DNA from: Methanocella paludicola SANAE
GTDB lineage: Archaea; Halobacteriota; Methanocellia; Methanocellales; Methanocellaceae
DNA: 64,000 nucleotides
Reading direction: 5' to 3'
Assembly (NCBI RefSeq): GCF_000011005.1
Contig: NC_013665.1
Span: forward strand, 2,147,501 to 2,211,500
The notes beneath the pieces were generated by a model that saw only the letters and a program-made list of their open reading frames with translations, was not told where the DNA came from and did not search any database. A program made the translations under genes and the position numbers. This document shows, in pieces, positions 26,843 to 49,602 of this stretch. Numbering within the stretch: the stretch's first letter is position 1; each line of letters begins with the position of its first letter.

Positions 26843-27095
26843 CCTGCATAACCTGTTTTAATCTAAAATTCGGATCGTGGTCCTTGGGAACTCAAGCCCA
26901 CCTTAAAAAAGCGCCGGCAAATTATTTTATATCGCTATCGGGATAATGATAATATTAAGTAATAAGCCCTAACGCGGTTCATTATATTGAGAAAAAATAT
27001 ATAATCATCCTATATTAGTATATCGAGGCATATCAAAATAGGCAATTTTAACATGGGGGGAATGGAAAGTCGTTGAAAACACGGATGCCGGGGAA

Positions 27096-28910: not shown

Positions 28911-28998
28911 CCCGGAAGACACCATACGGAAAGGTTTTATAAATAAATTTTATCACACTTATAATATAATTAAATACAGTAAATCTCATTGAAAAGGC

Positions 28999-31446
28999 AT
29001 GGTGGTCATCCTGTCGCCCTATCGGTCGAAAAAGAAAGACGAAGATAAGACCAAAGCACAGCTCATCGAAGAGCTGGAACAGCTCAGGGAGAGGATAAAA
29101 GAATTAAAAGACAGTGATAATGGCTCGGAACAAATATCGTCCGGGAATATTGCCGGCTACAATGACCAATCCCTTTTTAAGACCGTCATCGAGAACACGC
29201 CCATGGTCGCCATTCAGGGATATGATCGAGGCGGCGTGATCTACCACTGGAACCGGGCATCCGAATACATCTATGGCTATAGCGCCGAAGAAGCCATTGG
29301 AAAAAGGATCCAGGACCTCATCGTCATCGACGAGGATGTCGAGGCGTTCGAGCGAACGGTTAGGGATATCTCAGAAACCGGAAAGCCGACGCAATGCTCT
29401 TTATGGAAACTCAAGGCGAGGAACGGCGACATGGTCTGGACCTACTCGAGCATGTTCCCGGTCATAGAGCACGACAGGGTCGCCGAGATCTTCTGCATGG
29501 ACGTGGACGTGACCCGCTCTAAAAAGATGGAAGAGTCGTTACGTGAGCAGGAAGAGCAACTGCGCACCCTGATCAATGCCATGCCGGACATCGTCTGCTT
29601 CAAGGATGGCGAAGGCCGGTGGCTCGAGGCGAACGCGTTCGACCTCCGCCTCTTCGATATCGAGAACGTCCCGTACAAGGGTAAAACGGATTCGGAGCTC
29701 GCCGAACATAGCGGCTTTTACCGGGACGCGTTCCTGATGTGCGAAGAGACCGATGAAAAGGCCTGGCGCGCCGGCGCCACGGGCCACGAGGAAGAGACCA
29801 TCCCCAAGCCCGATGGTTCAGTGATGACGTTCGATACCATCAAAGTGCCCCTTTTTTATCCGGACGGCCGGCGCAAAGGGCTCGTGGTGATCGGCCGGGA
29901 CATCACCGACCGTAAGCGGGCGGAAGAGCAGCTAAAAAGCGCCTACGAGGACCTGGAAAAAAGGGTCGAGGAGCGGACGGGCGAGCTGGCCCGGGCGAGA
30001 AATACGCTGAAAGCGATGCTGGATACGCTCCCGATCGGCATTGTCATGTCGGAAGCCGGGACGGAGAGAATAACGTACTTTTCGCCAGGCGCCTTAAAGA
30101 TATTGGGCGGGCACATCATGGCCGCGTCACAGGATATGGAGCCAGGGCCATATGATTTTTTCGAGGTCGACGGCTCGCCGCTCCCGGTCGGCGAGCGGCC
30201 GCTACAGCGTTCGCTGCGCACCGGCGCATACGTACAGAACGTCGAGGTCATCGTGCGCCGAAAGGACGGTAGCACCGTAACGGCCCTCATCAGCAGCGCT
30301 CCCGTTAAAGATGCGAATGGGAACATCATCGCGGCCGTTTCGAGCATAAGCGACGTGACGGAGCTCAGGCGCGCGGACAAGGCCTTAAAGGAGAACGAAA
30401 GATTCCTGGAGAACGTCTTCGAGGGCATCCAGGACGGCATCAGCATCCTGGATAAGGACATGAACATACTGCGCGTGAACCACGCCATGAAAAAATGGTA
30501 TCCGGACATGGTCCCCCTCGAAGGCAAGAAATGCTATCAGGCCTATCATAAGAGAACGATACATTGCGAAAAATGCCCGACGATAAAGGCCATTAAGACC
30601 AGGGCTCTCCAATCCGACGTAGTGCCGATCGCCCGCGAGGACGGCAGCACGGGATGGCTCGAGCTATATGCATTCCCGCTGACCGACCGGGCGGGGAACG
30701 TCACGAGCATCATCGAGCACGTCCGCGACATTACGTCCAGGAAGCAGGCGGAAGAGCAGCTGGTCGAGGCCAAGGCGCAGGCGGAGCTTTACCTGGACCT
30801 GATGGGCCACGATATCAATAATATGAACCAGATAGCCTTAGGCTTCCTGGAGCTCGCGCTCGGGACACTGGACCTGAATAAAGAGGAAAAGCAGCTGATA
30901 TCCAAGCCCCTCGAAGCCATCGAGAGCAGCACCCGGCTCATCGATAACGTGAGAAAGCTTCAGAAGGTAAAGGAAGGCGGGCTTAAACTGCACGATATAG
31001 ACGTCGGGGAGATGGTCCGGAAGATCATACCGAGATATTCGGATATCGTCGGCCGGGATATAACTATTGATTTTACAGCGGGCTGCGAATGTAATGTTAA
31101 GGCTAACGACCTGCTCGACGACGTCTACGCCAACGTCATCGGCAACGCCATCAAGCATTCCACGGGCCGCCTGGCCATCGACATACACCTGGACAGGGTG
31201 AAGATCGGCGAGAGGGACTATTGCATGGTGACCGTCGAGGACGACGGCCCGGGCATACCCGACGAGCGCAAAGCCCGGCTATTCTCCCGGTCCCTGAAGA
31301 GGACGAGCGGTAAAGGCCTGGGCCTGTACCTGATCAAAATGCTCGCCGAGGACTTTCACGGCAAAGTGTGGGTCGAGGACCGCGTGCCGGGGGATCATAC
31401 GAAAGGCGCAAGGTTCATGATCATGCTGCCGGCTATTGAAAAGTAG
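28999..31446 (+). CDS. PAS sensor histidine kinase with four PAS domains
   Basis: The 815-residue kinase begins with a charged coiled coil (AQLIEELEQLRERIKELKD). PAS units follow at about residues 50-180, 190-310, 340-470 and 475-585, with a second coiled coil (EDLEKRVEERTGELARAR) before the third. The last PAS has KKCYQAYHKRTIHCEKCP, matching the Cys cluster of the preceding kinase. The core has YLDLMGHDINNMNQ, DVYANVIGNAIKHS, EDDGPGIPDERKARLF and GKGLGLYLIKML. Two decayed copies of its 3' part occur at 34345 and 36194. Confidence 0.92.
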   Translation: MVVILSPYRSKKKDEDKTKAQLIEELEQLRERIKELKDSDNGSEQISSGNIAGYNDQSLFKTVIENTPMVAIQGYDRGGVIYHWNRASEYIYGYSAEEAIGKRIQDLIVIDEDVEAFERTVRDISETGKPTQCSLWKLKARNGDMVWTYSSMFPVIEHDRVAEIFCMDVDVTRSKKMEESLREQEEQLRTLINAMPDIVCFKDGEGRWLEANAFDLRLFDIENVPYKGKTDSELAEHSGFYRDAFLMCEETDEKAWRAGATGHEEETIPKPDGSVMTFDTIKVPLFYPDGRRKGLVVIGRDITDRKRAEEQLKSAYEDLEKRVEERTGELARARNTLKAMLDTLPIGIVMSEAGTERITYFSPGALKILGGHIMAASQDMEPGPYDFFEVDGSPLPVGERPLQRSLRTGAYVQNVEVIVRRKDGSTVTALISSAPVKDANGNIIAAVSSISDVTELRRADKALKENERFLENVFEGIQDGISILDKDMNILRVNHAMKKWYPDMVPLEGKKCYQAYHKRTIHCEKCPTIKAIKTRALQSDVVPIAREDGSTGWLELYAFPLTDRAGNVTSIIEHVRDITSRKQAEEQLVEAKAQAELYLDLMGHDINNMNQIALGFLELALGTLDLNKEEKQLISKPLEAIESSTRLIDNVRKLQKVKEGGLKLHDIDVGEMVRKIIPRYSDIVGRDITIDFTAGCECNVKANDLLDDVYANVIGNAIKHSTGRLAIDIHLDRVKIGERDYCMVTVEDDGPGIPDERKARLFSRSLKRTSGKGLGLYLIKMLAEDFHGKVWVEDRVPGDHTKGARFMIMLPAIEK

Positions 31447-32890: not shown

Positions 32891-34234
32891 TTAGTTAGAC
32901 TTTTTACGCTTAATATCCAGATTAACCTTGGCCACTCTAACCAGTTCACTAATATGCATTTCAACAGGTGGTGTTATTGCATCCAGCCAGTGCGGCACGC
33001 TGATCAGGTATTCCATCGTCTTCGACAGCGGGACATCCTCGATGCGGAAGGGGATTATGATTACATCTTTAGACACCGCCCGGGATAGTTCCCTGACCAC
33101 ATGGGGCGAGTTGTTAGATTTAGATGAATAGACGACGACCATGATGCTGCTGCTATCTATAGCATCGATGATAGCTTCCTGGAAGATAGCGCCGGGAAGC
33201 ACGTCCCGGGGGGCGATCCAGCATTTAATGCCTTCGGCTTCCAGGCCGGCGCAGATGGCATCCGCCGTGGGCTTATCATCGTGGGAGTAGCTAATGAAAA
33301 CGTCGTGGCCGACTACCCTTGGCCCGGGTTCGGACGTGGCTTTTTGGGCATCCGGTATCGCCATAGCCCCGTTCATTTGCGCTTTGATAGCCGGTGCCTG
33401 CGCCTCTTGCGTTGGTTTTGACTCTACCTTCGATACCTTAAGAGCCCGGCGTTTTTTCAAATAATAATTTAATCCAAATACGATTGAGATTATAACGATA
33501 ACGACGAGAAGGAAGCCTAGATAAATAATGTATCTTTGGTCTGTAACAGTCGTGTCTGCCCCGCCAAGCAAGCGTATGTTATCGACTGCGACAAGTGTAC
33601 CGTGGGGGATCTCAAAAGCGGCACCACCTGCCAGATAAGGATTGTGCTCGTCCACATATGTCATTACAAGCTTTCCATCGAGCTGTACCTGTATCTCCGT
33701 TCCTCTGCCGGTTATTTCGATCTTATGCCATCCATCGGCTCCCGGAACACGGGCCTGCGTATAAGTCGGCTGCGTTAATGCTCCGTTCTTATTGATATCG
33801 ATAGTCAGGTAATTTCCTGCCCGATTTACTTGAACAGAATAGTGGCGATTGGGCGGATATGAAGGCTCGTTTACATCACGGTAGTTAAAGCTGATCATGC
33901 CGCTATCCAGCTTGAAGTCTGCGGCGAAGGTGTAATTATCGAATTTTATGAGGCGAAGACGGAGGGGGTCAGGGTTCCAGATAACCCAATTCGTCTTTGC
34001 TTTATCCCCCGTATATTCGCCGACCAGATAGGTATTGTTTCCGTCGGTGGTAACGCGCCAGGCTTGCGTCAGTTCCCAGTTACTCGTGCCATGCTCGAAC
34101 TCATCGGAAAATAGTACTTTATCGTAATACTGTGATAGATTCTCCTCGGCCATGCCCAGGGCAATTGAAGAAATGAAAATAATAGTTATGATAGCAGTTA
34201 TTATAAGAATTCTTTTTAAGCCTATAGCTGTCAC
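32891..34234 (-). CDS. Membrane receptor-like protein with extracellular jelly-roll domain and cytoplasmic TIR domain
   Basis: The 447-residue protein has an N-terminal signal or anchor (ILIITAIITIIFISSIALG). An extracellular beta-sandwich domain at about residues 45-225 is of the laminin-G/concanavalin or DUF1080-like type (LFSDEFEHGTSNWEL, WHKIEITGRGTEIQVQLDG). A second membrane helix follows (YLGFLLVVIVIISIVFGLNYYL, about 238-260), then a linker and a C-terminal TIR domain (about 315-430). The TIR domain has HDVFISYSHDD, CWIAPRDVLPG and a Glu in PHVVRELSRAV that could be the NADase residue. The GTG start at 34234 has GGGTGG upstream and a TATA box (CTTTATATGC) beyond. An open extension to 34390 runs into a kinase-gene relic and is not used. 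Confidence 0.88.
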   Translation of the reverse strand: MTAIGLKRILIITAIITIIFISSIALGMAEENLSQYYDKVLFSDEFEHGTSNWELTQAWRVTTDGNNTYLVGEYTGDKAKTNWVIWNPDPLRLRLIKFDNYTFAADFKLDSGMISFNYRDVNEPSYPPNRHYSVQVNRAGNYLTIDINKNGALTQPTYTQARVPGADGWHKIEITGRGTEIQVQLDGKLVMTYVDEHNPYLAGGAAFEIPHGTLVAVDNIRLLGGADTTVTDQRYIIYLGFLLVVIVIISIVFGLNYYLKKRRALKVSKVESKPTQEAQAPAIKAQMNGAMAIPDAQKATSEPGPRVVGHDVFISYSHDDKPTADAICAGLEAEGIKCWIAPRDVLPGAIFQEAIIDAIDSSSIMVVVYSSKSNNSPHVVRELSRAVSKDVIIIPFRIEDVPLSKTMEYLISVPHWLDAITPPVEMHISELVRVAKVNLDIKRKKSN

Positions 34235-34344
34235 TAGCGCCCACCCAATATTATGAATTACTTTTTTATTGCTATTCAAGCATATAAAGGTTAAGCAATA
34301 AAAAAAATTGATGCGGGCTCCGGGCGTAATCCGGTAGTAAATAG

Positions 34345-34460
34345 TGTATGGTGACCGTCGAGCAAAAAGCCCGGCTATTCTCCCGGTCACTGAAGAGGAC
34401 GAGAGGTAAAGGCCTGGGCCTGTACCTGATCATAATGCTCGCCAAGGACTTTCATGGAAA
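34345..34460 (+). pseudogene. Relic of a histidine kinase 3' end
   Basis: This stretch matches 31226-31370 of the kinase at 28999. It starts with ATGGTGACCGTCGAG and includes AAGCCCGGCTATTCTCCCGG and GGTAAAGGCCTGGGCCTGTA (the G2 box). A 27-base deletion lies between two CGAG copies, removing the G1 box. No start and no N-terminal part remain. Confidence 0.85.
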
Positions 34461-34521
34461 AATAAGTCATGATAATATCCTTTCGAAAGGGAAGCGCTAA
34501 ACGATACTACGGCCGTACATA

Positions 34522-36134: not shown

Positions 36135-36218
36135 TTAGTACCCCTCGAGCTTTGACTTGTGATACGCGAACATGGGTCGGTATCAGTATGAATAAAATGC
36201 TCGCCAAGGACTTTCACG
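36135..36218. pseudogene. Two short gene relics
   Basis: On the minus strand 36135-36179 reads RPMFAYHKSKLEGY and stop, similar to the ending of the short frame at 37252 (DKALFAYHKLEL). On the plus strand 36194-36218 matches the kinase 3' end (ATGCTCGCCAAGGACTTTCA), sharing a G-to-A change with the relic at 34345. Both are too short to be functional. Confidence 0.55.
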
Positions 36219-37251: not shown

Positions 37252-37464
37252 TTAAATGTGCTCCGGACGCTCCGAGAGTTCTAGCTTGTGGTATGCAAAG
37301 AGCGCCTTGTCGATCTGCCTGAGCGAGTACTGGCCACATTGCTTTTGTATGTCCAGGATCGCCTTCCCAAATATGGAAAGCGCAAAGGCGATATTTAACG
37401 GTATAATAAAATGAACCAAGTGGTTTAAATAATTGAACCAATGATGGTTATATTGAGACATCAT
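37252..37464 (-). pseudogene. Short frame, probable C-terminal relic
   Basis: The 70-codon frame ends ILDIQKQCGQYSLRQIDKAL, FAYHKLELSERPEHI. The ending looks like the C-terminus of a larger archaeal protein, and a related ending is found at 36135. The N-terminal half is without recognisable content. It overlaps the start of the divergent MNT gene by 2 bases. It could be a small intact gene, but a relic is more likely. Confidence 0.4.
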
Positions 37465-38023
37465 GAACGATCAAGTTCCGATAATAACTTTAATTGATGC
37501 GATCATAGCAAAAAATAGTTTCAAGATACTTAATATATTTCTTTTTAAGCCGGATGTGCAAATACACCAAAATGAAGTCATTCGTATGTCGGGGCTATCG
37601 AAAAATACGGTCATGAAACTGCTCGATCTCTTTACCAGGGAGGGCTTGCTAAAAGAATCCAGGAAGGGGAACTTGAAGTTATTCTCACTGGTGGAAGGGC
37701 ACCCGGTCGTAAAACAATTAAAGATCCTGGTCAACGTATCGGAACTTAATGAAATACTTAAACGTTTTGCCGGTAAAGGCTTTGAGACCTATCTATTCGG
37801 TTCTGCGGCAAGGGGCGAAGATACCGAAAAGAGCGATATCGACCTTTTGATCATTGGTAAGATCTCAAACGATGATCTGGCGGACATTACGGCCGGGATC
37901 ACGAATGCTATAAACAGGGAAGTAAATCCGATCATAAAGACCCCGTATGAATATTCAACCCTCTACAAGACCGATAAGGCATTTTTTGTGAACCTTGAAA
38001 GGGATAGAATAAGATTGACGTAG
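37463..38023 (+). CDS. HTH-MNT nucleotidyltransferase antitoxin
   Basis: The 186-residue protein has an N-terminal winged helix (about residues 20-75, NEVIRMSGLSKNTVMKLLDL) and a minimal nucleotidyltransferase domain with LFGSAARGEDTEKSDIDLL, the complete GSxxxGxxxxxSDxD site. It is followed after 2 bases by a HEPN gene, the typical order of a MNT/HEPN toxin-antitoxin pair. There the MNT protein silences the HEPN RNase, in studied cases by adding AMP to it. The fused HTH would let it control its own operon. Confidence 0.85.
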   Translation: MNDQVPIITLIDAIIAKNSFKILNIFLFKPDVQIHQNEVIRMSGLSKNTVMKLLDLFTREGLLKESRKGNLKLFSLVEGHPVVKQLKILVNVSELNEILKRFAGKGFETYLFGSAARGEDTEKSDIDLLIIGKISNDDLADITAGITNAINREVNPIIKTPYEYSTLYKTDKAFFVNLERDRIRLT

Positions 38024-38025
38024 GC

Positions 38026-38454
38026 ATGCGTATCATGGTAAATGATTTTATTGATTGTCTCAGGTCAGGTATGATAAAGAGTTATTCTGCCTCGAAGGAG
38101 GAGATTATCAAGGAACTCGGCCAGTCGGATAACGACCTGGTAAGGGCAAAAGAAACCATCAAGGCCGGGGATCATAAATGGTCCACTATCCAGGCGTATT
38201 ATTCCATGTTCCACGCGGCGAGGGCGGTTTTGCTATCTACCGGCTACAGGGAGAAAAGCCATAAGTGCATGCTCTTTTTCCTTGAAAGTCTCGTCGACGA
38301 GGGGCGCCTGGAACCGCACTTTGCCAGGGAGTTCAGGTCGGCGATGTTCCTGCGGGAGGATGCGGATTATGAGGCCACGTACTCGGAGCAGAGTGCCCGC
38401 GACACTGTTGAGAACGCATCTTTGTTTATCGTAAGAATGAAAAATTTACTGTGA
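38026..38454 (+). CDS. HEPN domain toxin-like protein
   Basis: The 142-residue all-helical protein has HEPN features: a first helix with AYYSMFHAARAVLL and the motif GYREKSHKCM (R-x3-H variant of the RNase motif), then a long C-terminal helix. It follows the HTH-MNT gene by 2 bases and shares its transcript. The pair is a likely RNase toxin with a nucleotidyltransferase antitoxin, placed at the left end of the defence island. Confidence 0.83.
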   Translation: MRIMVNDFIDCLRSGMIKSYSASKEEIIKELGQSDNDLVRAKETIKAGDHKWSTIQAYYSMFHAARAVLLSTGYREKSHKCMLFFLESLVDEGRLEPHFAREFRSAMFLREDADYEATYSEQSARDTVENASLFIVRMKNLL

Positions 38455-38826: not shown

Positions 38827-39456
38827 GTGATCACTAACATTACCCCTTCCGGTGAACGGCTTTCCAACCCTGTCCTGGACAACATTTACAGTCGCCGCTC
38901 CGTGCGCAACTATTCCGATAAGGAAGTCCCCGATGAGGTCATCAAAGAGATCATCCGGGCGGGCACGTATGCCCCGACCGCCATGAACCAGCAGCCATGG
39001 CGGTTCGTGGTCGTGAAGAATAAGAAGCTCATCGAGGAGTACGACGAGAGGGCGAAGAAGCTGTTTGTCGAGGCGTTCAAGGATACGACGATACCGGCGA
39101 TGGCCGCCTATGTGAGGAATCTGTCGAAGCCCCAGACCCGGCTGTTCTATGGGGCGCCCGTCCTCATCCTGGTATTCGCTACCCCTGATGTCGTCAATTA
39201 TCATGACTGTGCCCTGGCGGCGGAGAATATGATGATAGCGGCCTATTCGTTAGGGATCGGCAGCTGCTGGATCGGGCTGGCGCTGCATCTCGGGTGGGAT
39301 GCGGAGTTTCTGAGGGGAGTAGGTGTTCCGGAGGGGCATAAGCTTGTCGCGCCACTTATATTCGGGTACCCGGTGAAGGGGGAGATCAAGGCGCCTGCGC
39401 GCAACGCTGACGTCATATTGAAATGGATAAGCCAGGAAAGCTATGAAAAATACTAA
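38827..39456 (+). CDS. Nitroreductase family protein
   Basis: The 209-residue FMN-dependent oxidoreductase has the family landmarks: YSRRSVRNYSDKEVPDEVI (FMN phosphate contacts), PTAMNQQPWRFVVV, ALAAENMMIAAYSLGIGSCW and the final FGYP. Substrates vary (nitro compounds, quinones, flavin), so none is assigned. The start is GTG. It is the only intact nitroreductase gene here; four decayed pieces of related genes lie downstream at 39962, 40959, 43636 and 44678, all in the same direction. Confidence 0.9.
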   Translation: MITNITPSGERLSNPVLDNIYSRRSVRNYSDKEVPDEVIKEIIRAGTYAPTAMNQQPWRFVVVKNKKLIEEYDERAKKLFVEAFKDTTIPAMAAYVRNLSKPQTRLFYGAPVLILVFATPDVVNYHDCALAAENMMIAAYSLGIGSCWIGLALHLGWDAEFLRGVGVPEGHKLVAPLIFGYPVKGEIKAPARNADVILKWISQESYEKY

Positions 39457-39496
39457 GGTAATGGAACGATTACAATAATTATCTGTGGAATAGTTA

Positions 39497-39922
39497 ATGT
39501 TCCTGATGATAAATATCGGTATTGCTGAAGTAGCGCTCATTATAATTTGCACTCTTATATTTTGGGGTATTGCATTCCTTATATCTTATTATAAGTCGCC
39601 GTATGCAATGTCGATACATTCGGCACCATTAATTTATTTACCAAGAACTGATGACATAAGCCGTATCTATGATAATATAAAGCCTGATGATCATAGATCC
39701 AGGGCTATTTTGTGTCTAATCACATCATCGGAGCTAACCTTTACTCTGTTACTTGCATTAATAGCATGTTTACTGTGGATTAATGTTAAAAGTGTAGGAC
39801 AAGAAGTATTGAACATATATTGCTTTTTTTTATTAATTGTTGCCATATTAAATGGTGTTTTTACAATGGTTTTAATAGAAAAATTGGTTGAACGGGGCAT
39901 TATTGTTTCGATAGAACCTTGA
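39497..39922 (+). CDS. Membrane protein of unknown function
   Basis: The 141-residue protein has three membrane helices (about residues 8-30, 74-94 and 102-125) with a polar loop of about 40 residues after the first. G+C content is clearly lower than that of the nitroreductase before it, as in the island further right. No family is recognised. It lies between the intact nitroreductase gene and its first relic. Confidence 0.6.
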   Translation: MFLMINIGIAEVALIIICTLIFWGIAFLISYYKSPYAMSIHSAPLIYLPRTDDISRIYDNIKPDDHRSRAILCLITSSELTFTLLLALIACLLWINVKSVGQEVLNIYCFFLLIVAILNGVFTMVLIEKLVERGIIVSIEP

Positions 39923-39961
39923 TTATTTTATATTATGTAAGTATGGACATCGATTTGTATC

Positions 39962-40011
39962 CTGGCTGCGGAGAACATGATGCTCGCGGCCCATTCGACG
40001 GATGTTGGAAG
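39962..40011 (+). pseudogene. Nitroreductase relic 1
   Basis: Reads LAAENMMLAAHSTDVGS, matching LAAENMMIAAYSLGIGS of the intact gene at 39214-39264. It shares 20 identical bases (GCGGAGAACATGATGCTCGC) with relic 3 at 43706. Nothing else of the gene remains. Confidence 0.8.
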
Positions 40012-40028
40012 TAGTAAATGCACGAGTT

Positions 40029-40367
40029 TTACTTTCGAGAATAGCCGAATATCCTATCGTAATCCGTATGAGACATGAAATCGACGATAACCACTATGAT
40101 ATTATCGCCATATCTCTCAATAAAATAGATCAATCGCCATGCACCGGGGAGATTAAAAATTAACAGGTTATCCATGTGGTATTTATCGATATATGCTTTT
40201 GGCATTCGCTTTTTTTGTATACGATTTCCACAAAACGGATCAAGCTTTAGCTTATCGAATGCTTTATCTAAATGTACGAAGAGCCTTTTATCTTCGGTTG
40301 TTCCGGTCCTGAGCCCGTTTATTTTTTCCAGGACCGATCGCTCGGCACCCTTAACCTTTATTTCCAT
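40029..40367 (-). CDS. RelE/ParE-like toxin
   Basis: The 112-residue protein has the RelE-type layout: a helical N-terminal half (KRLFVHLDKAFDKLKLDPFCG) and a beta half with MPKAYIDKYHMDNLLIFNLP, GAWRLIYFIERYGDNIIVVI and a closing FMSHTDYDRIFGY. The GxWRLIY strand and the late H-x-x-Y-D-R segment are what one expects of plasmid-stabilisation RelE relatives that cleave mRNA on ribosomes. The gene upstream on the same strand (40439) is the likely antitoxin or partner. Confidence 0.78.
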   Translation of the reverse strand: MEIKVKGAERSVLEKINGLRTGTTEDKRLFVHLDKAFDKLKLDPFCGNRIQKKRMPKAYIDKYHMDNLLIFNLPGAWRLIYFIERYGDNIIVVIVDFMSHTDYDRIFGYSRK

Positions 40368-40438
40368 AAACGCTTACGCTATTAAAAAGTAATTAGTATT
40401 AAAATTTTGCAATAAAGTCAAAACGAAGTTCGTTTTGG

Positions 40439-40738
40439 TTATCGGATGGTCAGGTCATCCCTTAAGAGATATTCTTTAACGATCTTTGGATTCCAGATCC
40501 AGATGACGTAGCCCTTACTATCCCTGGCGATCTTGCCGGATTCAAGGAGGTAGTCGAAGGCATTGCAAAAAGTCTGGTACATCATTTTTTTCGGCAGGTG
40601 CTCCCATAATGCCCTTTTCTTATAATTGCCACTATGCTCTTTGATAAAGTCCTCGATCATCCGGATCGTGTCGAGCTTGGGCTGAAAACCGACTGCCTTT
40701 GACTCAGTTCCTTCTTGTTTATCGGGAATATCTAACAT
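40439..40738 (-). CDS. Winged-helix-like partner of the RelE-like protein
   Basis: The 99-residue protein has a helical core that looks like a winged helix (DTIRMIEDFIKEHSGNYKKR, then LWEHLPKKMMYQTFCNAFDYL, and a wing GKIARDSKGYVIWIWNP). It is 71 bases upstream of the RelE-like gene on the same strand, so it may be its antitoxin and repressor. No classic AbrB or RHH antitoxin motif is visible. Confidence 0.55.
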   Translation of the reverse strand: MLDIPDKQEGTESKAVGFQPKLDTIRMIEDFIKEHSGNYKKRALWEHLPKKMMYQTFCNAFDYLLESGKIARDSKGYVIWIWNPKIVKEYLLRDDLTIR

Positions 40739-41245
40739 GCCCTATACCTGATTTGTTATATTAGTTTATATAACAAATTGCTATTTAATGCTTTTGGCAC
40801 TTTTTCTATGCCGTCTCGCATATCGGTTTCACCACGGAGCGCACAGAGCTTTTTCAAATGCCCTTCGGGATAGGTCGTCGTTGAGGTACGAGGATGCTGA
40901 GGCACAGAGGCGACCAATATGGCATTCTGGCGGTAAATGATATTTGGGTTTACGTGGGGTACGGCTGTTCTGTGTCGCGTCCGGCCTCATCCTGGTGTTC
41001 CCATGCAAGGCAGTCGTCGGGGAATACGAGTGGGACCTGGTGGCGGAGAACACGATGATCGCTGGTCATGAGTTGGGGATTGGGAGCTGCTGGATTGGGG
41101 TGGAGATGAGGGGCGGCGAGAATGAGGAGTCTCAGAAGGAGGCGAGGGTGCTGGAACATTATTTTTGAAAGGTTGTGCATGCGATAGTATCCGATATGCT
41201 CAAATCCCAACAGTTAAATAGGTCCTAAAATTTGAAGAAAATAGT
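40739..41245. other. Gap made of relics
   Basis: No intact gene. From left to right it holds a decayed LIR3-type piece (about 40831-40915, CCACGGAGCGCACAGAGCT and GTCGTCGTTGAGG) and nitroreductase relic 2 (40959-41111). Confidence 0.65.
40959..41111 (+). pseudogene. Nitroreductase relic 2
   Basis: Still open in frame: VRLFCVASGLILVFPCKAVV, then AENTMIAGHELGIGSCWIG, matching TRLFYGAPVLILVFATPDVV and AENMMIAAYSLGIGSCWIG of the intact gene. The conserved domain start and end are missing. CATGAGTTGGGGATTGGGAG (41067-41086) recurs exactly in relic 4. Confidence 0.82.
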
Positions 41246-41380
41246 TTATACTTCTTGTTCTTTCTTCTGGTTCAAATACAAGGCAATTGCTCCAGCTGCG
41301 ATACCTAAAGCAATACCAAAAATAGCTGCCTCTAATAGCTCTTCTCCATCGCTTTTCTTTGCTTCTTTTTTAGAGGCCAT
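41246..41380 (-). CDS. Small single-helix membrane protein
   Basis: The 44-residue frame starts with ATG at 41380, with AAGGTG 6 bases upstream. It has a charged N-terminus (ASKKEAKKSDGEE), one membrane helix (AAIFGIALGIAAGAIALYL) and a charged tail. No family is recognised. Size and layout recall small toxins or regulatory membrane peptides, which is only an inference. Confidence 0.6.
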   Translation of the reverse strand: MASKKEAKKSDGEELLEAAIFGIALGIAAGAIALYLNQKKEQEV

Positions 41381-41523
41381 ACCTTTACACCTTCAGAGAC
41401 AATAATGTATTACGGTAAATTGTTTATGGTCTTTATCAGTCAATTGCAAATCCGATTATAACCTTATTAACTTATCTATTAAATAAGTAATGTATAAATC
41501 CTAAACGCTTGCAAAAGAATAAA

Positions 41524-42117
41524 CTATTTGGCTTTTTCCCGACTCTTATATAATTGTTTAGCGTATTGCCGTGTACGATGGCCGCTTCGGAACTTATCAC
41601 TATCTGGAGCAACATACCCTAACATGCGGAAATCTTCAGGCCTTGCGCCATATTTAAGCCAATCAATCGCTTTTTCGACTGGTTCATGAGGATTAACCCA
41701 GATGATTACTTTTAATTCTTCAGACATTGTGGACGCCCTTTTAAAGTGCCCTCGGGCTCGCTCATCAAGGGAAATAATGATATTATCCGTTACAAGGGCG
41801 GCTTCAACCAGGTGCATGTCTTTCATTATGACTACTAAGATGGTCGGATCCTTTTTAGCAGCGATTGACGATCGTATCTTATTACGAATATCGTCGTTTG
41901 TCTCGATGGCTTTCCGGAGTAGTCGGCCCTTATCGGCCATGGCCTTCATCCATGATACGGCAAAACGGCCTTTATGTCTTTTCCATTCATCCCATAATTG
42001 TTCTGACATAACGACATGGTATTTATGGGTGTAGACAGTATTTAGTACGTCTCGGCAGACCTTCGAATCGGAAGCGTGCCCTACGCAGGCATCGATCACA
42101 AGCTTTGTTGGCGGCAT
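41524..42117 (-). CDS. PIN-like nuclease-domain protein
   Basis: The 197-residue protein has PIN-type features: an N-terminal LVIDACVGHASD (first Asp), MSEQLWDEWKRH (Glu), and DMHLVEAALVTDNIIISLDE with Asp residues spaced as in PIN active sites, followed by a basic tail. PIN proteins are metal-dependent RNases. The ATG at 42117 is 1 base after the stop of the ATPase gene, so the two are made together. The pair looks like an ATPase sensor with an RNase effector. Confidence 0.75.
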   Translation of the reverse strand: MPPTKLVIDACVGHASDSKVCRDVLNTVYTHKYHVVMSEQLWDEWKRHKGRFAVSWMKAMADKGRLLRKAIETNDDIRNKIRSSIAAKKDPTILVVIMKDMHLVEAALVTDNIIISLDERARGHFKRASTMSEELKVIIWVNPHEPVEKAIDWLKYGARPEDFRMLGYVAPDSDKFRSGHRTRQYAKQLYKSREKAK

Positions 42118-42118
42118 T

Positions 42119-43534
42119 TTAATCCACCGGGTGTAGCTCGGAAGCATCCAGATATCGACTATCCGCCTCGAGCTCGATCTCTGCGAAGTCGATAGGGCAT
42201 TCGCCAAATGAGCCCCGTTTATCAAAACTCGTACTTATAACATCCGTTACACCATCATCGTTTCTCGAGAACCAATGCAATTTTACATTATCAGTCGTGA
42301 TTTTACCTTCGGCGATATATGTCTGGATACCAGTTAGAAGTAACATGCTATGGGTTTCTATGACAACTTTTACTCCACGGTTTGCGGTTTCAACCAACAT
42401 CTCGGCCAGCTTATACTGAGCCCGGGGATGGAGATGTATCTCCGGCTGCTCGATATAAACGATTTGGTCTCTTTTAGCCACAAGTAAAGCGACTAATACG
42501 GGAAGTACTTGCGATACGCCGAAGCCGACGTCGGCAATATTTACCATATCCTCGGGATCGCTCGTCTTTTTCGGCAGGCGATGCAGCAATATCTCGACTT
42601 GCGTATCGTTGATCTGCTTTGCGTCGATCTTCCATGTGAGACCTAAGGTCTTTAGCCAATTCCCAAGCTTGTTCAATGCAGGGTTGTTCGTAACTTTCCA
42701 GTGATTGATGATACTGGCAACGTAATTATCCAGGGTCCCGGGAAACTGAGGGCCGACTGCGGTCGTTTTATAAACTCTTTGCGGATTTCCACGTAGAGTG
42801 GGCACATGGATAATGCCAAGGATATGATTTTCAACCCGACTTAAGTCCTCGAAACCCGGGATAGGTAATACGGATGGAGAGATAATCGCCTTACCATACG
42901 CACCCGTAACACTAAAAACAACGTTTAGCATACACCTTTTTCGTAATATTTTTAATCCTATGTTCAAGTTATCGGTATCTATACCATTATCAGATAGGCG
43001 TTTATTATCGAGGATAAAGCTGTTCAGGCTTTTTCTAAAAGACTCATATTGATCATTGAAAAACCAATATTTTTTTATAAGGTCCTTTTCGTCCATGCCA
43101 GGTTTTAGCCTTACATTGCTCTTTTTACTGGTAAAAGAAGCCTCGACGAGCTCGACCGGCTTATTCTTTCCACGCTTAAATGTCTCTCGAATGGACTTTT
43201 CCCCGTCCACCTCAATCGTAATGGAGAATTTATCGGCAACTTCGTTGCCGATTTTGGATAAAAATTCCTTAGCAGAATAATACCGGACATGGGGCCCGTC
43301 GATCAGGAGGTCGCCGGGATCATACGATTCTTCCATGGTTTGTTTCATCATCAGGAGCGGCTGGAAGATGCTCGATTTGCCCGAGCTATTGGACCCGGAG
43401 AGAATTGTCAGAGGATATATGGATATTGATTTTTCATCGTAGATAGATTTGAAGCCGGCTACGGATATTTTGCTTATGCCTTTGACTTCATAGGAAGATG
43501 ATCTTTTATTTCTTGCTTCAGCTATAGAAACCAC
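42119..43534 (-). CDS. SMC/RecF-like AAA ATPase of a defence-type pair
   Basis: The 471-residue ATPase has an N-terminal ISVAGFKSIYD strand, Walker A (LSGSNSSGKSSIFQPLL), a signature-like region (DVGFGVSQVLPVLVALL), Walker B (IVYIEQPEIHLHPRAQYKLA) and a switch His (VVIETHSMLLL). This is the AAA_15/DUF3696 type found in Old-like and other phage-defence ATPases. The GTG at 43534 is preferred because a longer frame to 43642 would begin inside nitroreductase relic 3. The PIN-like gene follows after 1 base. Confidence 0.85.
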   Translation of the reverse strand: MVSIAEARNKRSSSYEVKGISKISVAGFKSIYDEKSISIYPLTILSGSNSSGKSSIFQPLLMMKQTMEESYDPGDLLIDGPHVRYYSAKEFLSKIGNEVADKFSITIEVDGEKSIRETFKRGKNKPVELVEASFTSKKSNVRLKPGMDEKDLIKKYWFFNDQYESFRKSLNSFILDNKRLSDNGIDTDNLNIGLKILRKRCMLNVVFSVTGAYGKAIISPSVLPIPGFEDLSRVENHILGIIHVPTLRGNPQRVYKTTAVGPQFPGTLDNYVASIINHWKVTNNPALNKLGNWLKTLGLTWKIDAKQINDTQVEILLHRLPKKTSDPEDMVNIADVGFGVSQVLPVLVALLVAKRDQIVYIEQPEIHLHPRAQYKLAEMLVETANRGVKVVIETHSMLLLTGIQTYIAEGKITTDNVKLHWFSRNDDGVTDVISTSFDKRGSFGECPIDFAEIELEADSRYLDASELHPVD

Positions 43535-43635
43535 CCCATAATCGTATGTTGTATAATCGATTACTATAATGTAACTTTCGCTTATATTACCGATGATATT
43601 GGTATCAAGCAGATGTCCATTAAGTGCAACGACAT

Positions 43636-43777
43636 GGAGCACCAGTGCTCATCCAGGTGTTCGCCGTGCCAGGGGATCGTTGAGGAATATGATTGTGCCC
43701 TGGCGGCGGAGAACATGATGCTCGCAGCCCATTCATTATAGGTCGATAGACGCTGGATAGAACTTGCGAAGCATTTG
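43636..43777 (+). pseudogene. Nitroreductase relic 3
   Basis: GAPVLIQVFAVPGD in one frame corresponds to GAPVLILVFATPD of the intact gene. After a frameshift, CALAAENMMLAAHSL, stop, VDRRWIELAKHL continues the match to CALAAENMMIAAYSLGIGSC and WIGLALHL. It lies directly upstream of the ATPase gene. Confidence 0.83.
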
Positions 43778-43868
43778 TAATCAAAATGCATATTGTTTAT
43801 GATATTATAGCTAATATATTCCCGAGTAATAGATTGGATTAGTTATGTAAGTAATATCGTGGAATATC

Positions 43869-44660
43869 ATGTCCGGCGGTGGAGATCGAATCCATGATCA
43901 AGTATCTGCTATACGGGAATTATCTCCTGATATTATTGCATTTCAAGAGGTAACAGCACTTACATTGTCCAAATACATAGAAGAATTATCGAAAATTGGT
44001 TTCACTCATTTTATCGATAGCTTCCAATTTGTAAAATATTCATCTAGATTAAAAGGTCCTAGAAGATATGGAGAACTTGTTGCAAGCAGATGGCCTATTA
44101 TGGAATTTCCGGGATTTTTAAAGGTACCATGGCAGGAAAAAGTACTCTCATGCCTGATAGAAAGCCCGGAAGGTACCATTGAGCTACATACAGCTCATGT
44201 TCCCAACGGTAGTACTAACGATTGGATAAAGATCCGGACTCTGGAAGGTATCTACAAAGGCCTGGCCTGTCAGTCACATAACCACAGGATATTGTGTGGT
44301 GACTTTAATACACCTCAAAAAGAGCTTCCTGATGGTAAGATCATTACCTGGGGCCAATATGAAAAGGCAAATGGCGATTATGCGCTATGCAAATATTGGG
44401 GAAAGAGATGGGATAAAGGAGAACGCAATGTGCTCGAAGGATTAGCCCAATTTGACCTCGCTGACGTGTACAGGAAATTAAATGGTTATGTAACTCGTGA
44501 TTTTAGCTGGTATACTAAAAGAAGGGGAAAGAGGATTGGGAGAAGATTCGATCATGTTTTTGCTTCATCTTCACTAAAGGTAAAGGAATGTCGTTATTTA
44601 CATGAGTTGAGAAGAAAAGGGCTCAGCGACCATTCACCAATTGAAGTTACTTTTCAATAA
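43869..44660 (+). CDS. Endonuclease/exonuclease/phosphatase (EEP) family protein with an interrupted start
   Basis: The 263-residue frame has EEP motifs: AFQEV (catalytic Glu), HTAHVPNGS, ILCGDFNTP, RRFDHVFAS and GLSDHSPIEV (final Asp-His). The family motif SWN normally near the N-terminus, with its metal-site Asn, is present in the DNA just before this ATG (VISWNIM). The only upstream start is ATG 43845, whose second codon is TAA. The protein made from 43869 would lack that Asn, so the gene is either damaged at codon 2 or uses an unusual start. The right-hand flank holds nitroreductase relic 4. Confidence 0.75.
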   Translation: MSGGGDRIHDQVSAIRELSPDIIAFQEVTALTLSKYIEELSKIGFTHFIDSFQFVKYSSRLKGPRRYGELVASRWPIMEFPGFLKVPWQEKVLSCLIESPEGTIELHTAHVPNGSTNDWIKIRTLEGIYKGLACQSHNHRILCGDFNTPQKELPDGKIITWGQYEKANGDYALCKYWGKRWDKGERNVLEGLAQFDLADVYRKLNGYVTRDFSWYTKRRGKRIGRRFDHVFASSSLKVKECRYLHELRRKGLSDHSPIEVTFQ

Positions 44661-44677
44661 TATAACTAATTCTTCAT

Positions 44678-44733
44678 GCCTTGTCGGCGAAGAACATGAT
44701 GTTAGTTGCTCATGAGTTGGGGATTGGGAGTAT
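44678..44733 (+). pseudogene. Nitroreductase relic 4
   Basis: Reads ALSAKNMMLVAHELGIGS, matching ALAAENMMIAAYSLGIGS. It shares CATGAGTTGGGGATTGGGAG exactly with relic 2 (here 44711-44730). Only this core segment remains. Confidence 0.78.
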
Positions 44734-44849
44734 CTTTACCATGGAATGAGATATGTAATTTAAATTAAAGTTTTAATTTTCCAATAAGTATTGTACAATT
44801 ATGGCTATCATATTTAATTTAGAATCGCAAATACTGTTATCGATTATAT

Positions 44850-45321: not shown

Positions 45322-46239
45322 TTATTCAAGCCCTTTTAATATAGTTTGTTTTAATGAATCTCTGTATTTCTTAATTCTTTTTTCTGCAACTGCAATATAA
45401 TCTTTATCGATGTCATATCCTACGAAATGACGGTTTACTTGTAATGCTGCGATGGCTGTTGTTCCACTGCCCATAAATGGATCTAAAATTATATCATCTT
45501 CGAATGTATATAGCTTGATGCACCGTAGTGGTAATTCAATCGGATATGGAGCCGGATGGCCGATCTTTGTTGCTGATTCTGATTTGAATGACCATATGCT
45601 CTTAGTATATTCTAGGAATTCTTCTTTGGTAATTGATGATTTTTTATTACAATCGTTATTTCTTGAGAATGATTGTTTAGAGAATATCATAATGTATTCG
45701 TGTACATCTCGAAGCGTTGGATTTGAGGCCGATTGGAAGCTACCCCATGCTGTTGATCCACCTGCACTCGATGCTTTATTCCATATTATTTCCCCACGCA
45801 TTAAAAACCCAATATCGAGCATATCCTTGATGATAAAAGAATGCAAAGGCAAGTAAGGTTTTCTTCCTAGATTCGCTACATTTAGACATACTCTCCCACC
45901 AGGAACTAAAACCCTATAAACATCTCTCCATACGTTTGCTAAAAAATCCAGGTATTCTTTAAGTGATAGGTTCTCATCATACTCTTTTCCCACATTGTAT
46001 GGTGGTGATGTAACCATTAGATGAACGCTATTATCCGGTAATTCCTCCATGTGTTCACTAGATTTACAAAAAATTTTATCTAAATTATTACTTGGAATAG
46101 CATATTCAGTAAAATCAATGGTTTTATCTATTTTATAATCGCTATATAACCGGCTATTATAGAATATTGATGAATCATGATTTTCTCTTCCGGACGATCC
46201 AAAAGAACTTGTTTTTGTGCCACCGGTTTTTGATTTCAT
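45322..46239 (-). CDS. DNA methyltransferase (N4-cytosine/N6-adenine, beta-type order)
   Basis: The 305-residue enzyme has the catalytic motif IV (VTSPPYNVG) before the SAM-binding motif I (DPFMGSGTTAIAAL), the beta-class order, and NRHFVGYDIDKDYI after it. SPPY is more usual for N4-cytosine enzymes, but N6-adenine cannot be excluded. The target-recognition part lies between about residues 150 and 240. GGTGGAT precedes the ATG, and the endonuclease gene ends 3 bases upstream, so the two form a restriction-modification operon. Confidence 0.9.
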   Translation of the reverse strand: MKSKTGGTKTSSFGSSGRENHDSSIFYNSRLYSDYKIDKTIDFTEYAIPSNNLDKIFCKSSEHMEELPDNSVHLMVTSPPYNVGKEYDENLSLKEYLDFLANVWRDVYRVLVPGGRVCLNVANLGRKPYLPLHSFIIKDMLDIGFLMRGEIIWNKASSAGGSTAWGSFQSASNPTLRDVHEYIMIFSKQSFSRNNDCNKKSSITKEEFLEYTKSIWSFKSESATKIGHPAPYPIELPLRCIKLYTFEDDIILDPFMGSGTTAIAALQVNRHFVGYDIDKDYIAVAEKRIKKYRDSLKQTILKGLE

Positions 46240-46242
46240 TGC

Positions 46243-47139
46243 CTATCCACCATTAATTAATTGTAGGAATCTTTCAGCCTTTAGTCTATAAGTAATTTCG
46301 CTATCAGCAAGTTCTATCATTCTACCTAGGTCTTCTTTTGACTTCCATCCTGCAAAGAAAGTGCTATTATTATTCAATAGAGCAGCAATATTATTTCTGA
46401 GTTCTGTGATTGAACTAATTGTCTTAAATCCAAATCCATCTGTATTGTGAATATAATTACCATTGTCAAGCGGATGTGGATTTAATGACCAAAATCCTTG
46501 GATAATACCATAACTTTTTAAGTTATCAACTTTGGTTTTATAACTTTCTTGTATTGGGGTATTTCCTAGGATAATTATAGGTATAATAGATGCTCTTCCA
46601 CTTGCAGTTCTTATACCAACACTTTTGCCTATCGCTTTTAACATGGTATCTGATCTCAATAATCCAGGTGTCCCTATATGTGAATTATAATCACCTAAAC
46701 ACTGTAATTGGTACGTTGTGCCATTTTGCATGCATTGCCAATTCCATACAATTGACATCTTTACTTCAAATATGGCAATAATATTTTCTGGCCTTTGTCT
46801 AGTATTTGAATTTCTACATATGGCTACATCGGCTGGAGAATCATTTGATAACCCAACTTCATCACATATTACATTATTAACAGCATAAAATCCAAGTTCC
46901 CTGGCAATAGGTTCAATTAAGTCTTTTGACCATTTTTCAGTATATTCACCAATACGACCATTACGGCTCTGAAGTGTAGTTTTAGTTCCCCGATAATTTT
47001 TCGGCCAATAGGCAAGATATCTGCCATCATTTGTAAGATAGAATAATTTTCCTTTCGGTGCGACACTCAATGAGGTATTAAAAAAATTAACTTCATCTTC
47101 TTTTGCCCATACGCCATCGGTAATAGTCATTTTACCCAT
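46243..47139 (-). CDS. PD-(D/E)XK restriction endonuclease-like protein
   Basis: The 298-residue protein has a nuclease core with SPADVAIC (Asp) and, after about 22 residues, IIAIFEVKMS (E-x-K), the PD-(D/E)XK signature. An N-terminal segment has WSKDLIEPIARELGF. Its position immediately before the methyltransferase on the same strand supports a Type II-like cutter; the site is unknown. ATG 47130 (MTITDG) is an alternative start. G+C is low, like the rest of the right half of the island. Confidence 0.82.
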   Translation of the reverse strand: MGKMTITDGVWAKEDEVNFFNTSLSVAPKGKLFYLTNDGRYLAYWPKNYRGTKTTLQSRNGRIGEYTEKWSKDLIEPIARELGFYAVNNVICDEVGLSNDSPADVAICRNSNTRQRPENIIAIFEVKMSIVWNWQCMQNGTTYQLQCLGDYNSHIGTPGLLRSDTMLKAIGKSVGIRTASGRASIIPIIILGNTPIQESYKTKVDNLKSYGIIQGFWSLNPHPLDNGNYIHNTDGFGFKTISSITELRNNIAALLNNNSTFFAGWKSKEDLGRMIELADSEITYRLKAERFLQLINGG

Positions 47140-47203
47140 TATGTGATATTATTATGGATAAAGCTTTGTAAACGAATGGTTTATATAAAAATTTATAAAA
47201 TTT

Positions 47204-49228
47204 CTAATCTGCAGATATCGCTGCAGAATTACGAGATAATTCTACTGCTTGTTCAGCAGTTTTTAATTCAGCTACTAATTTACTTTTTTCGATTTCTAGC
47301 CTATCATTTAAAAATTTAAACCTTAGATCGCACTCATTTAGTACATCGCTCCATTTTTTAACATAAATTTTTACATTATCTACTTTGTAAACAAGGCCCG
47401 GTTCTCCAAGTTTTTCGTTATTTGTTAGTTCATCTTCAATAAAATGTGAGGTATTATATTTATTACCCACTAATATATACTCCCATTTATAATTATCAGC
47501 ATTAAATCTGTCAATCTCACGGATAATGCGCATATAATCCCTGACTTGATACAGCTGATTTCTCCCAAGTCTTATATTTGGATGCTTTAACTCCACAATA
47601 ATATTTTTTACATGTCCATTATTTTTTTCTTGTCTGCATATAAAAATATCAACTTGTTTCAACTTATCTGGATGGTCTAATGGTACTCCCTCATAATCCT
47701 CTTGATCTTTTTCTGTAAGTATGTGAATGTGTTCTTTTAACGCTTTTTCAAAATTATCTTCTGCAGCGGCAACTAAATTATATTGTTCACCAAAAATCCA
47801 ATAATGATTTTGTACTATTTCTTGGAGATGATTTACCTCATCAGCGTATAAATCATGGTTAAATACAACCTGACTTAAAAGCTCTAAAGCTTGTAACCGA
47901 TCTTTTATTAGTTTAATAGTTTTTACAATATTTGATAGAGAAGCATGTTGTAGAATCTCTTTTAATTGTGTTCGCTCTTTCGAATCCAGCTTTACTACTT
48001 CATCTATGATATCAAGAATTTCATCACGCTCATCAGAAATTAATAACACATTTAATAAACCAATAAATGTCTTTTTTTGTTCATATTTTAAATTTTTAAA
48101 AATTTTCGGTTCAGTTACATAAACCTCTTTTACTATAGCTTCTAAGTGTTCAATTTGGAGCAATTCAAAATCAGATTTGTTAGATTTATCGATTATATCC
48201 TTATCTAACGATGTAACAAAACTTTCGGCTTGCTCGATAATTAAGGGTTTTCTTTGTCTTCTTAAATATTTTGATAATTCATTCTGTAATAGTTTAAACT
48301 CTTCGTCTGCTATTGAATGTACACCTAATGACTTTTGATGTATATCACCATTATCAAAATTAAAATTTAAGAAGTAATCACTTGATATAAACACACTGTG
48401 ATAAAAATTATCTCCTTTATTATTAAACTTAGTATTTTCTTTATAAATCTCATTGCCGTTATTATCTAAATAATAAAACTTCGAATATTCTAAATTAAGT
48501 TGATAATTCCATCGTATGTATTGTATATTAAATACAGTAGAAGACAACTCATGTTTGATTTCAAATTGTTGCTTATCAACTAATATATCTGAATAATTTA
48601 AACCTTCGCCATTAATAACTAGCCGATATTTAGATTTATTTAATTCTAAGAACCAGCAGAATTCCTTTTTAAGATAATTAAGCATCAATTTTTCAGCTTC
48701 TCTTGCATTTTTAAAAATCGAAAATCTGTTAAAGTCGGAAAAGGTAATAGTTGTACCTGTATGATCGATAGTTACTATCGGTTTATTCTCAGCAGAATAA
48801 GTATCTAATTTATGTGATGTTATTTCTATATCATATTTATAATTTATATTATTATCATTATATGTAGTAGACCAATTTGCTTTATTAGCAAAAGTAAAAA
48901 ATGTTAACCTACCAACACCACGAAACCCATGTATTTTCGAGTTGGTTCTTAATATCTCTTCTTCTCTTAATTTTTCCGAGTCATAAAAGGGCCTAAACTT
49001 ATTTTCTAATTCATTATAATTAATACCAGTACCATTATCCGATATAATTAATTTTTTTAGACTTCCACCTGAACTAAATTCGTACTCTATTTTGATATGA
49101 GTCGCTTTTGCATCAAACCCATTCCAAACGTATTCGGAAATAGCTTTAAAAAAGCGTTTATCATTATATTTTAATTTAGTTAACGCAGATTTAATACCTT
49201 TTGTAGTTATTTTAACTTCACTTACCGT
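47204..49228 (-). CDS. GHKL ATPase fused to a Shedu/PD-(D/E)XK-like nuclease domain, apparent ACG start
   Basis: The frame is open from 49249 to the stop at 47204. Residues 1-110 hold a complete Hsp90-type GHKL site: FFKAISEYVWNGFDAKA (E...N...D-A), ISDNGTGIN (G1) and HGFRGVGRLTFF (G2). The middle is helical. The last third has HYWIFGEQYNLV, LKQVDIFIC and NIIVELKHPNIRLG, the D...E-x-K pattern of DUF4263/Shedu-like nucleases. No ATG, GTG or TTG exists before 48688, which would remove the whole ATPase. ACG at 49228 lies 6 bases after GAGGT and is one transition from ATG. It ends 64 bases before the endonuclease gene on the same strand. Confidence 0.75.
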   Translation of the reverse strand, partial: TVSEVKITTKGIKSALTKLKYNDKRFFKAISEYVWNGFDAKATHIKIEYEFSSGGSLKKLIISDNGTGINYNELENKFRPFYDSEKLREEEILRTNSKIHGFRGVGRLTFFTFANKANWSTTYNDNNINYKYDIEITSHKLDTYSAENKPIVTIDHTGTTITFSDFNRFSIFKNAREAEKLMLNYLKKEFCWFLELNKSKYRLVINGEGLNYSDILVDKQQFEIKHELSSTVFNIQYIRWNYQLNLEYSKFYYLDNNGNEIYKENTKFNNKGDNFYHSVFISSDYFLNFNFDNGDIHQKSLGVHSIADEEFKLLQNELSKYLRRQRKPLIIEQAESFVTSLDKDIIDKSNKSDFELLQIEHLEAIVKEVYVTEPKIFKNLKYEQKKTFIGLLNVLLISDERDEILDIIDEVVKLDSKERTQLKEILQHASLSNIVKTIKLIKDRLQALELLSQVVFNHDLYADEVNHLQEIVQNHYWIFGEQYNLVAAAEDNFEKALKEHIHILTEKDQEDYEGVPLDHPDKLKQVDIFICRQEKNNGHVKNIIVELKHPNIRLGRNQLYQVRDYMRIIREIDRFNADNYKWEYILVGNKYNTSHFIEDELTNNEKLGEPGLVYKVDNVKIYVKKWSDVLNECDLRFKFLNDRLEIEKSKLVAELKTAEQAVELSRNSAAISAD

Positions 49229-49602
49229 ATTAATACCTCGCGCAAGCGCTTAATCATTAATTAATAAATTATTGTTTACTTATTAATCAAATACTAATCT
49301 ATAAAGATTACTAACATGCATTCAGAAAGTATTAGCAAATAATTGAACAAGTAATTCTATATTACGTTGGTATTTTTTAAAATTTAAAAAATAATAAGCC
49401 ATAACAAATGATAGGATATTGAATACCTATAAGTGTATATGAGGACTATTAGGTTGTAAATACCTAGTCAGCCCGTACAATTAATCTAATTTACTAATAA
49501 ACTCATATTTTATTTCTAATAACCCACCCACGCCTTTCTCCCTGCGTAACATATTTATACTAACATTCCATTTATAGCACCCAACCAACGTAAGTGTACA
49601 GT
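49229..49602. other. A+T-rich boundary between island and ribosomal cluster
   Basis: No gene or clear repeat is seen. A TATA box (ATATTTATACT, about 49551-49561) lies 42-52 bases before the methyltransferase start and probably opens the ribosomal supercluster. Base composition changes abruptly here, from A+T-rich on the left to G+C-rich on the right. Confidence 0.5.

Follow-up and report, generated by a model that had tools for sequence, protein, structure and literature searches.

Organization of the locus

The window, which is the whole 64,000-nucleotide stretch of Methanocella paludicola SANAE DNA analysed here (contig NC_013665.1, positions 2,147,501 to 2,211,500), contains an intact nitroreductase (NR) gene, NR1, and four decayed NR stretches, designated r1 to r4, which follow it on the same strand with other genes in between (Table 1). 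The GC content is 42-45% at 36-44 kb and 32-35% at 44-50 kb, and rises to about 59% in the operon of ribosomal proteins, whose first gene is a SPOUT gene at 49594. Within 15 kb, an MNT-HEPN pair, a type II methyltransferase, an NsnB-like ATPase with a PIN-like partner and a TIR protein are found together. This gathering of defence and toxin-antitoxin families is as in defence islands, with the candidate defence roles taken from family names only, but several neighbours here carry no defence assignment and one of the genes, of the EEP family, is native and damaged.

Table 1. Genes and gene remnants around NR1, in positions of the window
Feature	Position	Strand	Description
HK28999, intact histidine kinase	28999-31446	+	ORF of 815 aa; source of the HKr1 match
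TIR protein	32891-34390	-	lectin/LamG-like or 3-keto-disaccharide-hydrolase-like domain, probable membrane segment, C-terminal TIR
HKr1, C-terminal histidine-kinase relic	34345-34521	+	HK28999 residues 742-813; 57% over 72 aa, E 1e-14
HKr2, histidine-kinase scrap	36192-36218	+	about 25 nt; 21 nt exact with HKr1
MNT nucleotidyltransferase and HEPN pair	37463-38454	+	toxin-antitoxin of minimal type; adjoins NR1 on the left
NR1, intact NR gene	38827-39456	+	209 aa; PF00881 E 5.9e-34
Predicted membrane protein (NR1-r1 gap)	39497-39922	+	ORF; no Pfam, NCBIfam or PADLOC match above cutoff
r1, NR relic	39943-40016	+	clear homology 39953-40015; NR1 residues ~126-147; profile E 1.4e-5 to 1.2e-4
Possible HigB/RelE-like toxin (r1-r2 gap)	40029-40367	-	HigB_toxin PF09907 E 0.014, below Pfam cutoff
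Partner ORF (r1-r2 gap)	40439-40738	-	no family match
r2, NR relic	40959-41162	+	NR1 residues ~103-163; profile E 1e-9 to 1.6e-13
PIN-like protein, ATPase partner	41524-42225	-	weak PIN match E 0.068; true start probably nearer 42118
AAA_15/AAA_21 ATPase (r2-r3 gap)	42119-43642	-	Pfam E 8e-25; PADLOC NsnB model E 2.5e-59; true start probably near 43534
r3, NR relic	43633-43786	+	profile match 43664-43786; NR1 residues ~108-155; E 1e-8 to 6e-11
EEP-family gene (r3-r4 gap)	43869-44660	+	PF03372 E 1.7e-11; 5' damaged
r4, NR relic	44667-44740	+	profile match 44675-44740; NR1 residues ~127-148; E 4e-5 to 6e-4
Type II DNA methyltransferase, family-less ORF (possible restriction enzyme), weak HSDR_N_2 nuclease match	45322-48688	-	

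The first-pass annotation, made from the sequence, had assigned one functional module to each gap, and modules indeed lie between the relics; the RelE-like and PIN assignments are weak, and the EEP gene, a native one, is truncated at its 5' end. In the upstream frame of the EEP gene (43845-44660), which reads M*VISWNIMSGGG, the second codon is a stop, and according to the alignment the ORF starting from the next ATG is devoid of the first strand bearing the conserved WN. Orthologues with 56-59% identity are present in all three Methanocella relatives (G001, G002 and G003), where they reside elsewhere in the genome; by sequence comparison, the EEP gene is a native, genus-wide Methanocella gene that is damaged here. 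A relative of the ATPase (48%) was found only in one of 295 genomes (G109), in which homologues of the PIN-like protein and the ATPase form an adjacent pair (L179) with no NR nearby. Directly left of r2, at 40788-40940, there is a sequence resembling CACCACGGAG...GCACAGAG repeats, seemingly spread across the genome.

Identification of the nitroreductase relics

After masking of NR1, a search of 35-50.5 kb in six frames with NR profiles yielded exactly four significant extra NR stretches, all on the plus strand, and no detectable N-terminal or C-terminal NR pieces. The candidate arrangement in which N- and C-terminal NR halves had been split apart by cargo was rejected on this search, as no such halves were found. 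The relics cover 22-60 of the 209 residues of NR1, so that there is no functional full-length gene among the four, and all share a common centre at NR1 residues ~127-147. Sequence comparison confirmed the exact runs, GCGGAGAACATGATGCTCGC between r1 and r3 (20 nt), TCATGAGTTGGGGATTGGGAG between r2 and r4 (21 nt) and TGTGCCCTGGCGGCGGAGAA between NR1 and r3 (20 nt), of which the first two are longer than expected (p 0.009 for r1/r3 and 0.04 for r2/r4). The description given in the first-pass annotation, that is, an intact NR gene followed in the same direction by four decayed pieces with one shared core and with 20-base runs common to r1/r3 and r2/r4, is thus borne out.

Genome-wide searches detected no further relics of the NR1 subfamily elsewhere in M. 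paludicola, and the only other close gene in this genome is NR2 (2224055-2224642 of the contig; 54% aa to NR1). The closest relatives of NR1 (70-76% aa) are in genomes of the genus designated g57 and in a Methanosarcina metagenome-assembled genome (MAG); g57 is probably Methanosarcina, because the relative in this MAG (71%) has the same core.

None of the four relics has a gap in the core, and r1, r2 and r4 are open in frame through it, which is what would be seen if selection maintained the cores for a role as regulatory sequence, RNAs or small peptides. Such a role is, however, extremely improbable, given that r3, which carries a frameshift as well as an in-frame TAG, has this TAG within the core, that the relic changes fall on all codon positions, and that no Rfam match was obtained.

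Divergence among the relics

Over the 51-nt gap-free core, each relic matches NR1 at 71-76% identity, and identities among the relics range from 63 to 80%. All four relics carry CAT (His) at codon 140, for which NR1 has TAT and NR2 an Arg codon, and AAC at position 134, for which NR1 has AAT. The closest NR1 orthologues, those of genus g57, have Gln or Arg at position 140, and among NRs that are further removed His is common there (27 of about 107 sequences). The differences between relics, summed for the six pairs, are distributed 28:26:37 over the three codon positions without clear third-position excess overall; r1/r3 alone gives 2:2:8, and the functional pair of NR1 and the Methanosarcina MAG gene gives 2:0:8. 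Since the 28:26:37 spread is unlike that of functional pairs, the relics seem to have diverged mostly after death as dead sequence, while r1/r3 runs otherwise.

The involvement of at least two NR paralogues, as proposed in the first reading of this DNA, is not supported as far as functional genes are concerned, as the shared CAT and AAC codons and the 28:26:37 spread fit one related lineage diverging mostly after death; r1/r3, with 2:2:8, makes this reading a tentative one. The alternation of two relic types along the locus is visible as a pattern, but trees lend it weak support (UFBoot values of 24-67; bootstrap of nearest neighbours 28-90% on the 51-nt core). The pairing of r2 with r4, with a shared GAG and the 21-nt run, is suggestive at the sequence level, under the same weak tree and bootstrap support. 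For relics of 25-200 nt, trees and mosaic tests are low in power, and the relic tree is too short for resolution. Mosaic tests of r2 and r4 were nominally significant, and a mosaic origin was rejected, as the signal can be explained by private decay of r3 and r4 together with the absence of homology to the left of r4. The flanks of the relics hold no common sequence beyond chance, the few shared 11-mers being within the shuffled range, with the overlap between the NR1 and r1 flanks discounted.

These data bear on an alternative origin of the array, in which an NR gene was first cut to a central fragment (~residues 105-163) and this fragment was duplicated in direct orientation, after which the copies diverged and inserted genes came to separate them. 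This course of events would account for the shared centre and the missing gene ends, and likewise for the shared His and Asn codons and the absence of overall third-codon bias among the relics. The relics, however, have no shared flanks and are separated by unrelated intervals, and each duplicate must then have lost all of its flanks; in addition, the r1/r3 differences are mostly at the third position. We hold duplication of a central fragment to be unlikely.

Test of the pattern against chance

Of 850 ORFs sampled over 861 kb of the 2,958-kb genome, NR1 was the only one with at least three same-strand non-coding fragments within 10 kb; for this control the edges of each gene itself were ignored and fragment lists alone were used. 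Many other apparent relics, which resemble genome-wide repeats read as ORFs, were left uncounted. The position of the fragments within the gene was examined by simulation, in which windows of real homologues were decayed and scored with profiles, so that the detection bias was modelled. Four independent fragments shared at least 18 residues with P of about 0.003-0.004, a value to be taken as about 1% or less, because fragment lengths were estimated and only four source sequences were employed. A common centre is thus unlikely for independent random fragments.

Histidine-kinase scraps upstream of NR1

Remnants of a second family, the histidine kinases, lie 4-5 kb left of NR1 and show the same geometry as the NR relics: HKr1 and HKr2 follow intact tandem kinases (24914-31446) in the same direction, and are situated at gene borders among genes for the TIR protein, a further kinase and a CAAX protease. 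HKr1 shares an exact run of 28 nt with HK28999, and HKr1 and HKr2 share the 21-nt exact core AATGCTCGCCAAGGACTTTCA, over which HKr2 has one mismatch to HK28999. With its sharp bounds, HKr2 resembles a junction scar more than it does the product of slow decay of a long fragment. The scrap pattern is accordingly not specific to NR; the picture of relics at module borders drawn in the first-pass annotation is right for the NR relics, but had missed the kinase scraps at 34-36 kb.

Nitroreductase loci in other genomes

If NR served as a locus for the capture of cargo, relics of the same core would be looked for next to NR and other defence genes in related genomes. No core relics adjoin NR at 80 NR loci of other genomes, among the matches obtained in 102 of the 394 genomes of the phylum, or in 20-kb neighbourhoods of the four orthologues closest to NR1 (four g57 genomes), and in the phylum scan every match passing E 1e-6 outside M. 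paludicola lies in a stop-free frame of more than 100 codons. No NR relatives were confirmed in viral contigs, and a literature search for NR as an integration site returned no relevant paper and one unrelated match. As a separate observation, one Methanocella genome (G002, L044:7694-7909, in the G002:C1:804684 region) carries a 5'-truncated NR remnant corresponding to NR1 residues 138-209, directly after a transposase-like ORF; this C-terminal remnant is different in form from the central relics.

The model drawn from the first reading of the locus takes NR as a homologous landing site, at which modules were captured by exchange in the core with one relic left per event. In its favour are the location of the relics at module borders, in one direction and after the intact gene, together with the 20-21-nt exact runs of r1/r3, r2/r4 and NR1/r3. 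On the other hand, no link between NR and cargo was found in the other genomes examined, the EEP gene is native and genus-wide, the PIN-ATPase pair moves without NR, as seen in G109, and the G001 genome fills the same hotspot without NR. We consider a landing site in NR to be improbable. Repeated capture by homologous exchange survives in part: the local, same-strand arrangement, the shared centre and the short exact runs fit some role of such exchange, whereas the idea of NR as a capture locus is not supported.

The second mechanism then put forward, a recombination site inside the gene, would have a site-specific recombinase use the NR core as its attachment site, with small elements accreting in tandem to form the array. 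Integrative elements accrete in tandem at tRNA-type attachment sites, leaving an intact gene at one end and partial direct repeats at the borders, and the intact NR1 at one end, with direct repeats of part of NR at the borders, is of similar geometry. The locus differs in that the ORFs annotated over 32.9-48.7 kb, several of which have no family, include no recognised integrase, and in that a native gene is among the cargo. Moreover, the repeats are internal to the gene, away from its end, and are diverged (63-80% identical), of unequal extents and with unrelated flanks, in place of near-identical constant borders; the fragments do not run from the core to the gene end, and there is no recurrence at the 80 NR loci or in the phylum scan. 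An attachment site is thus very unlikely; a recombination site inside NR is conceivable, but no positive support was obtained for one.

A probable hotspot of gene turnover beside the SPOUT-L3 operon

In G001, the region upstream of SPOUT-L3 (L048:1975-14214, G001:C1) encodes HerA, an OLD-like ATPase-TOPRIM protein, GIY-YIG and HNH proteins, and no NR. Because a different defence-like cluster, free of NR, occupies this place, turnover seems to be tied to the flank of the ribosomal operon and not to NR.

We propose, with a probability of roughly 0.55, that the relics are dead remnants in a hotspot of gene turnover that immediately precedes the SPOUT-L3 ribosomal operon. Additional NR copies, and histidine-kinase copies beside them, would have been present at the locus, and repeated insertion and deletion of unrelated genes would have trimmed these copies, short internal scraps staying behind at the new junctions. 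New genes may often have entered by pairing on short homology in a resident gene, that is, by homology-facilitated insertion, which would explain why an intact copy is followed, in the same direction, by the scraps. They probably serve no function at present.

This proposal agrees with the presence of four significant same-strand relics that are absent elsewhere in the genome, with the isolated position of NR1 among the 850 ORFs of the control, with relic differences spread over all codon positions as in dead sequence, with the matching geometry of the kinase scraps and the damaged native EEP gene among the modules, and with the NR-free cluster at the G001 operon flank and the lack of relics beside NR elsewhere. 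Against it, simple decay predicts neither a single shared centre without gene ends (P about 0.003-0.004) nor the sharp edges of HKr2, and homology-facilitated insertion predicts 3' remnants, which HKr1 fits and the NR relics do not. A more specific form, in which conserved internal stretches of ~20-30 bp of resident archaeal genes (NR and kinase) act as anchors for serial gene addition beside the ribosomal operon with one scar per event at the border, appears improbable.

Ordinary pseudogene clusters are decayed tandem gene arrays, and the locus resembles them in having several same-strand remnants of one family by an intact copy, with tandem intact kinases nearby, but differs in that only central scraps are found, with one centre, and that unrelated genes lie between every pair. 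A mechanistic parallel may be sought in the T6SS immunity-gene arrays of Vibrio cholerae, for which sequential displacement by homology-facilitated illegitimate recombination has been proposed, the same mechanism being mentioned for Rhs loci (PMC5361080). The likeness lies in serial insertion beside a resident gene, with unrelated modules downstream and no specific integration site, and the displacement model predicts 3' remnants, of which HKr1 is one. In contrast to these arrays, the piece repeated here comes from the interior of a metabolic gene, and the modules are something other than effector-immunity pairs; the NR relics follow the intact copy in parallel yet lack the 3' end, and a single strain is concerned.

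It is debated how islands acquire genes in the absence of integrases. Should the scraps be insertion scars, they would constitute a record of the anchors used, and perhaps of the order of insertions, that could be searched for systematically in other islands; should they be ordinary remnants, they would serve as a useful warning that parallel scraps with a common core need not imply a recombination site.
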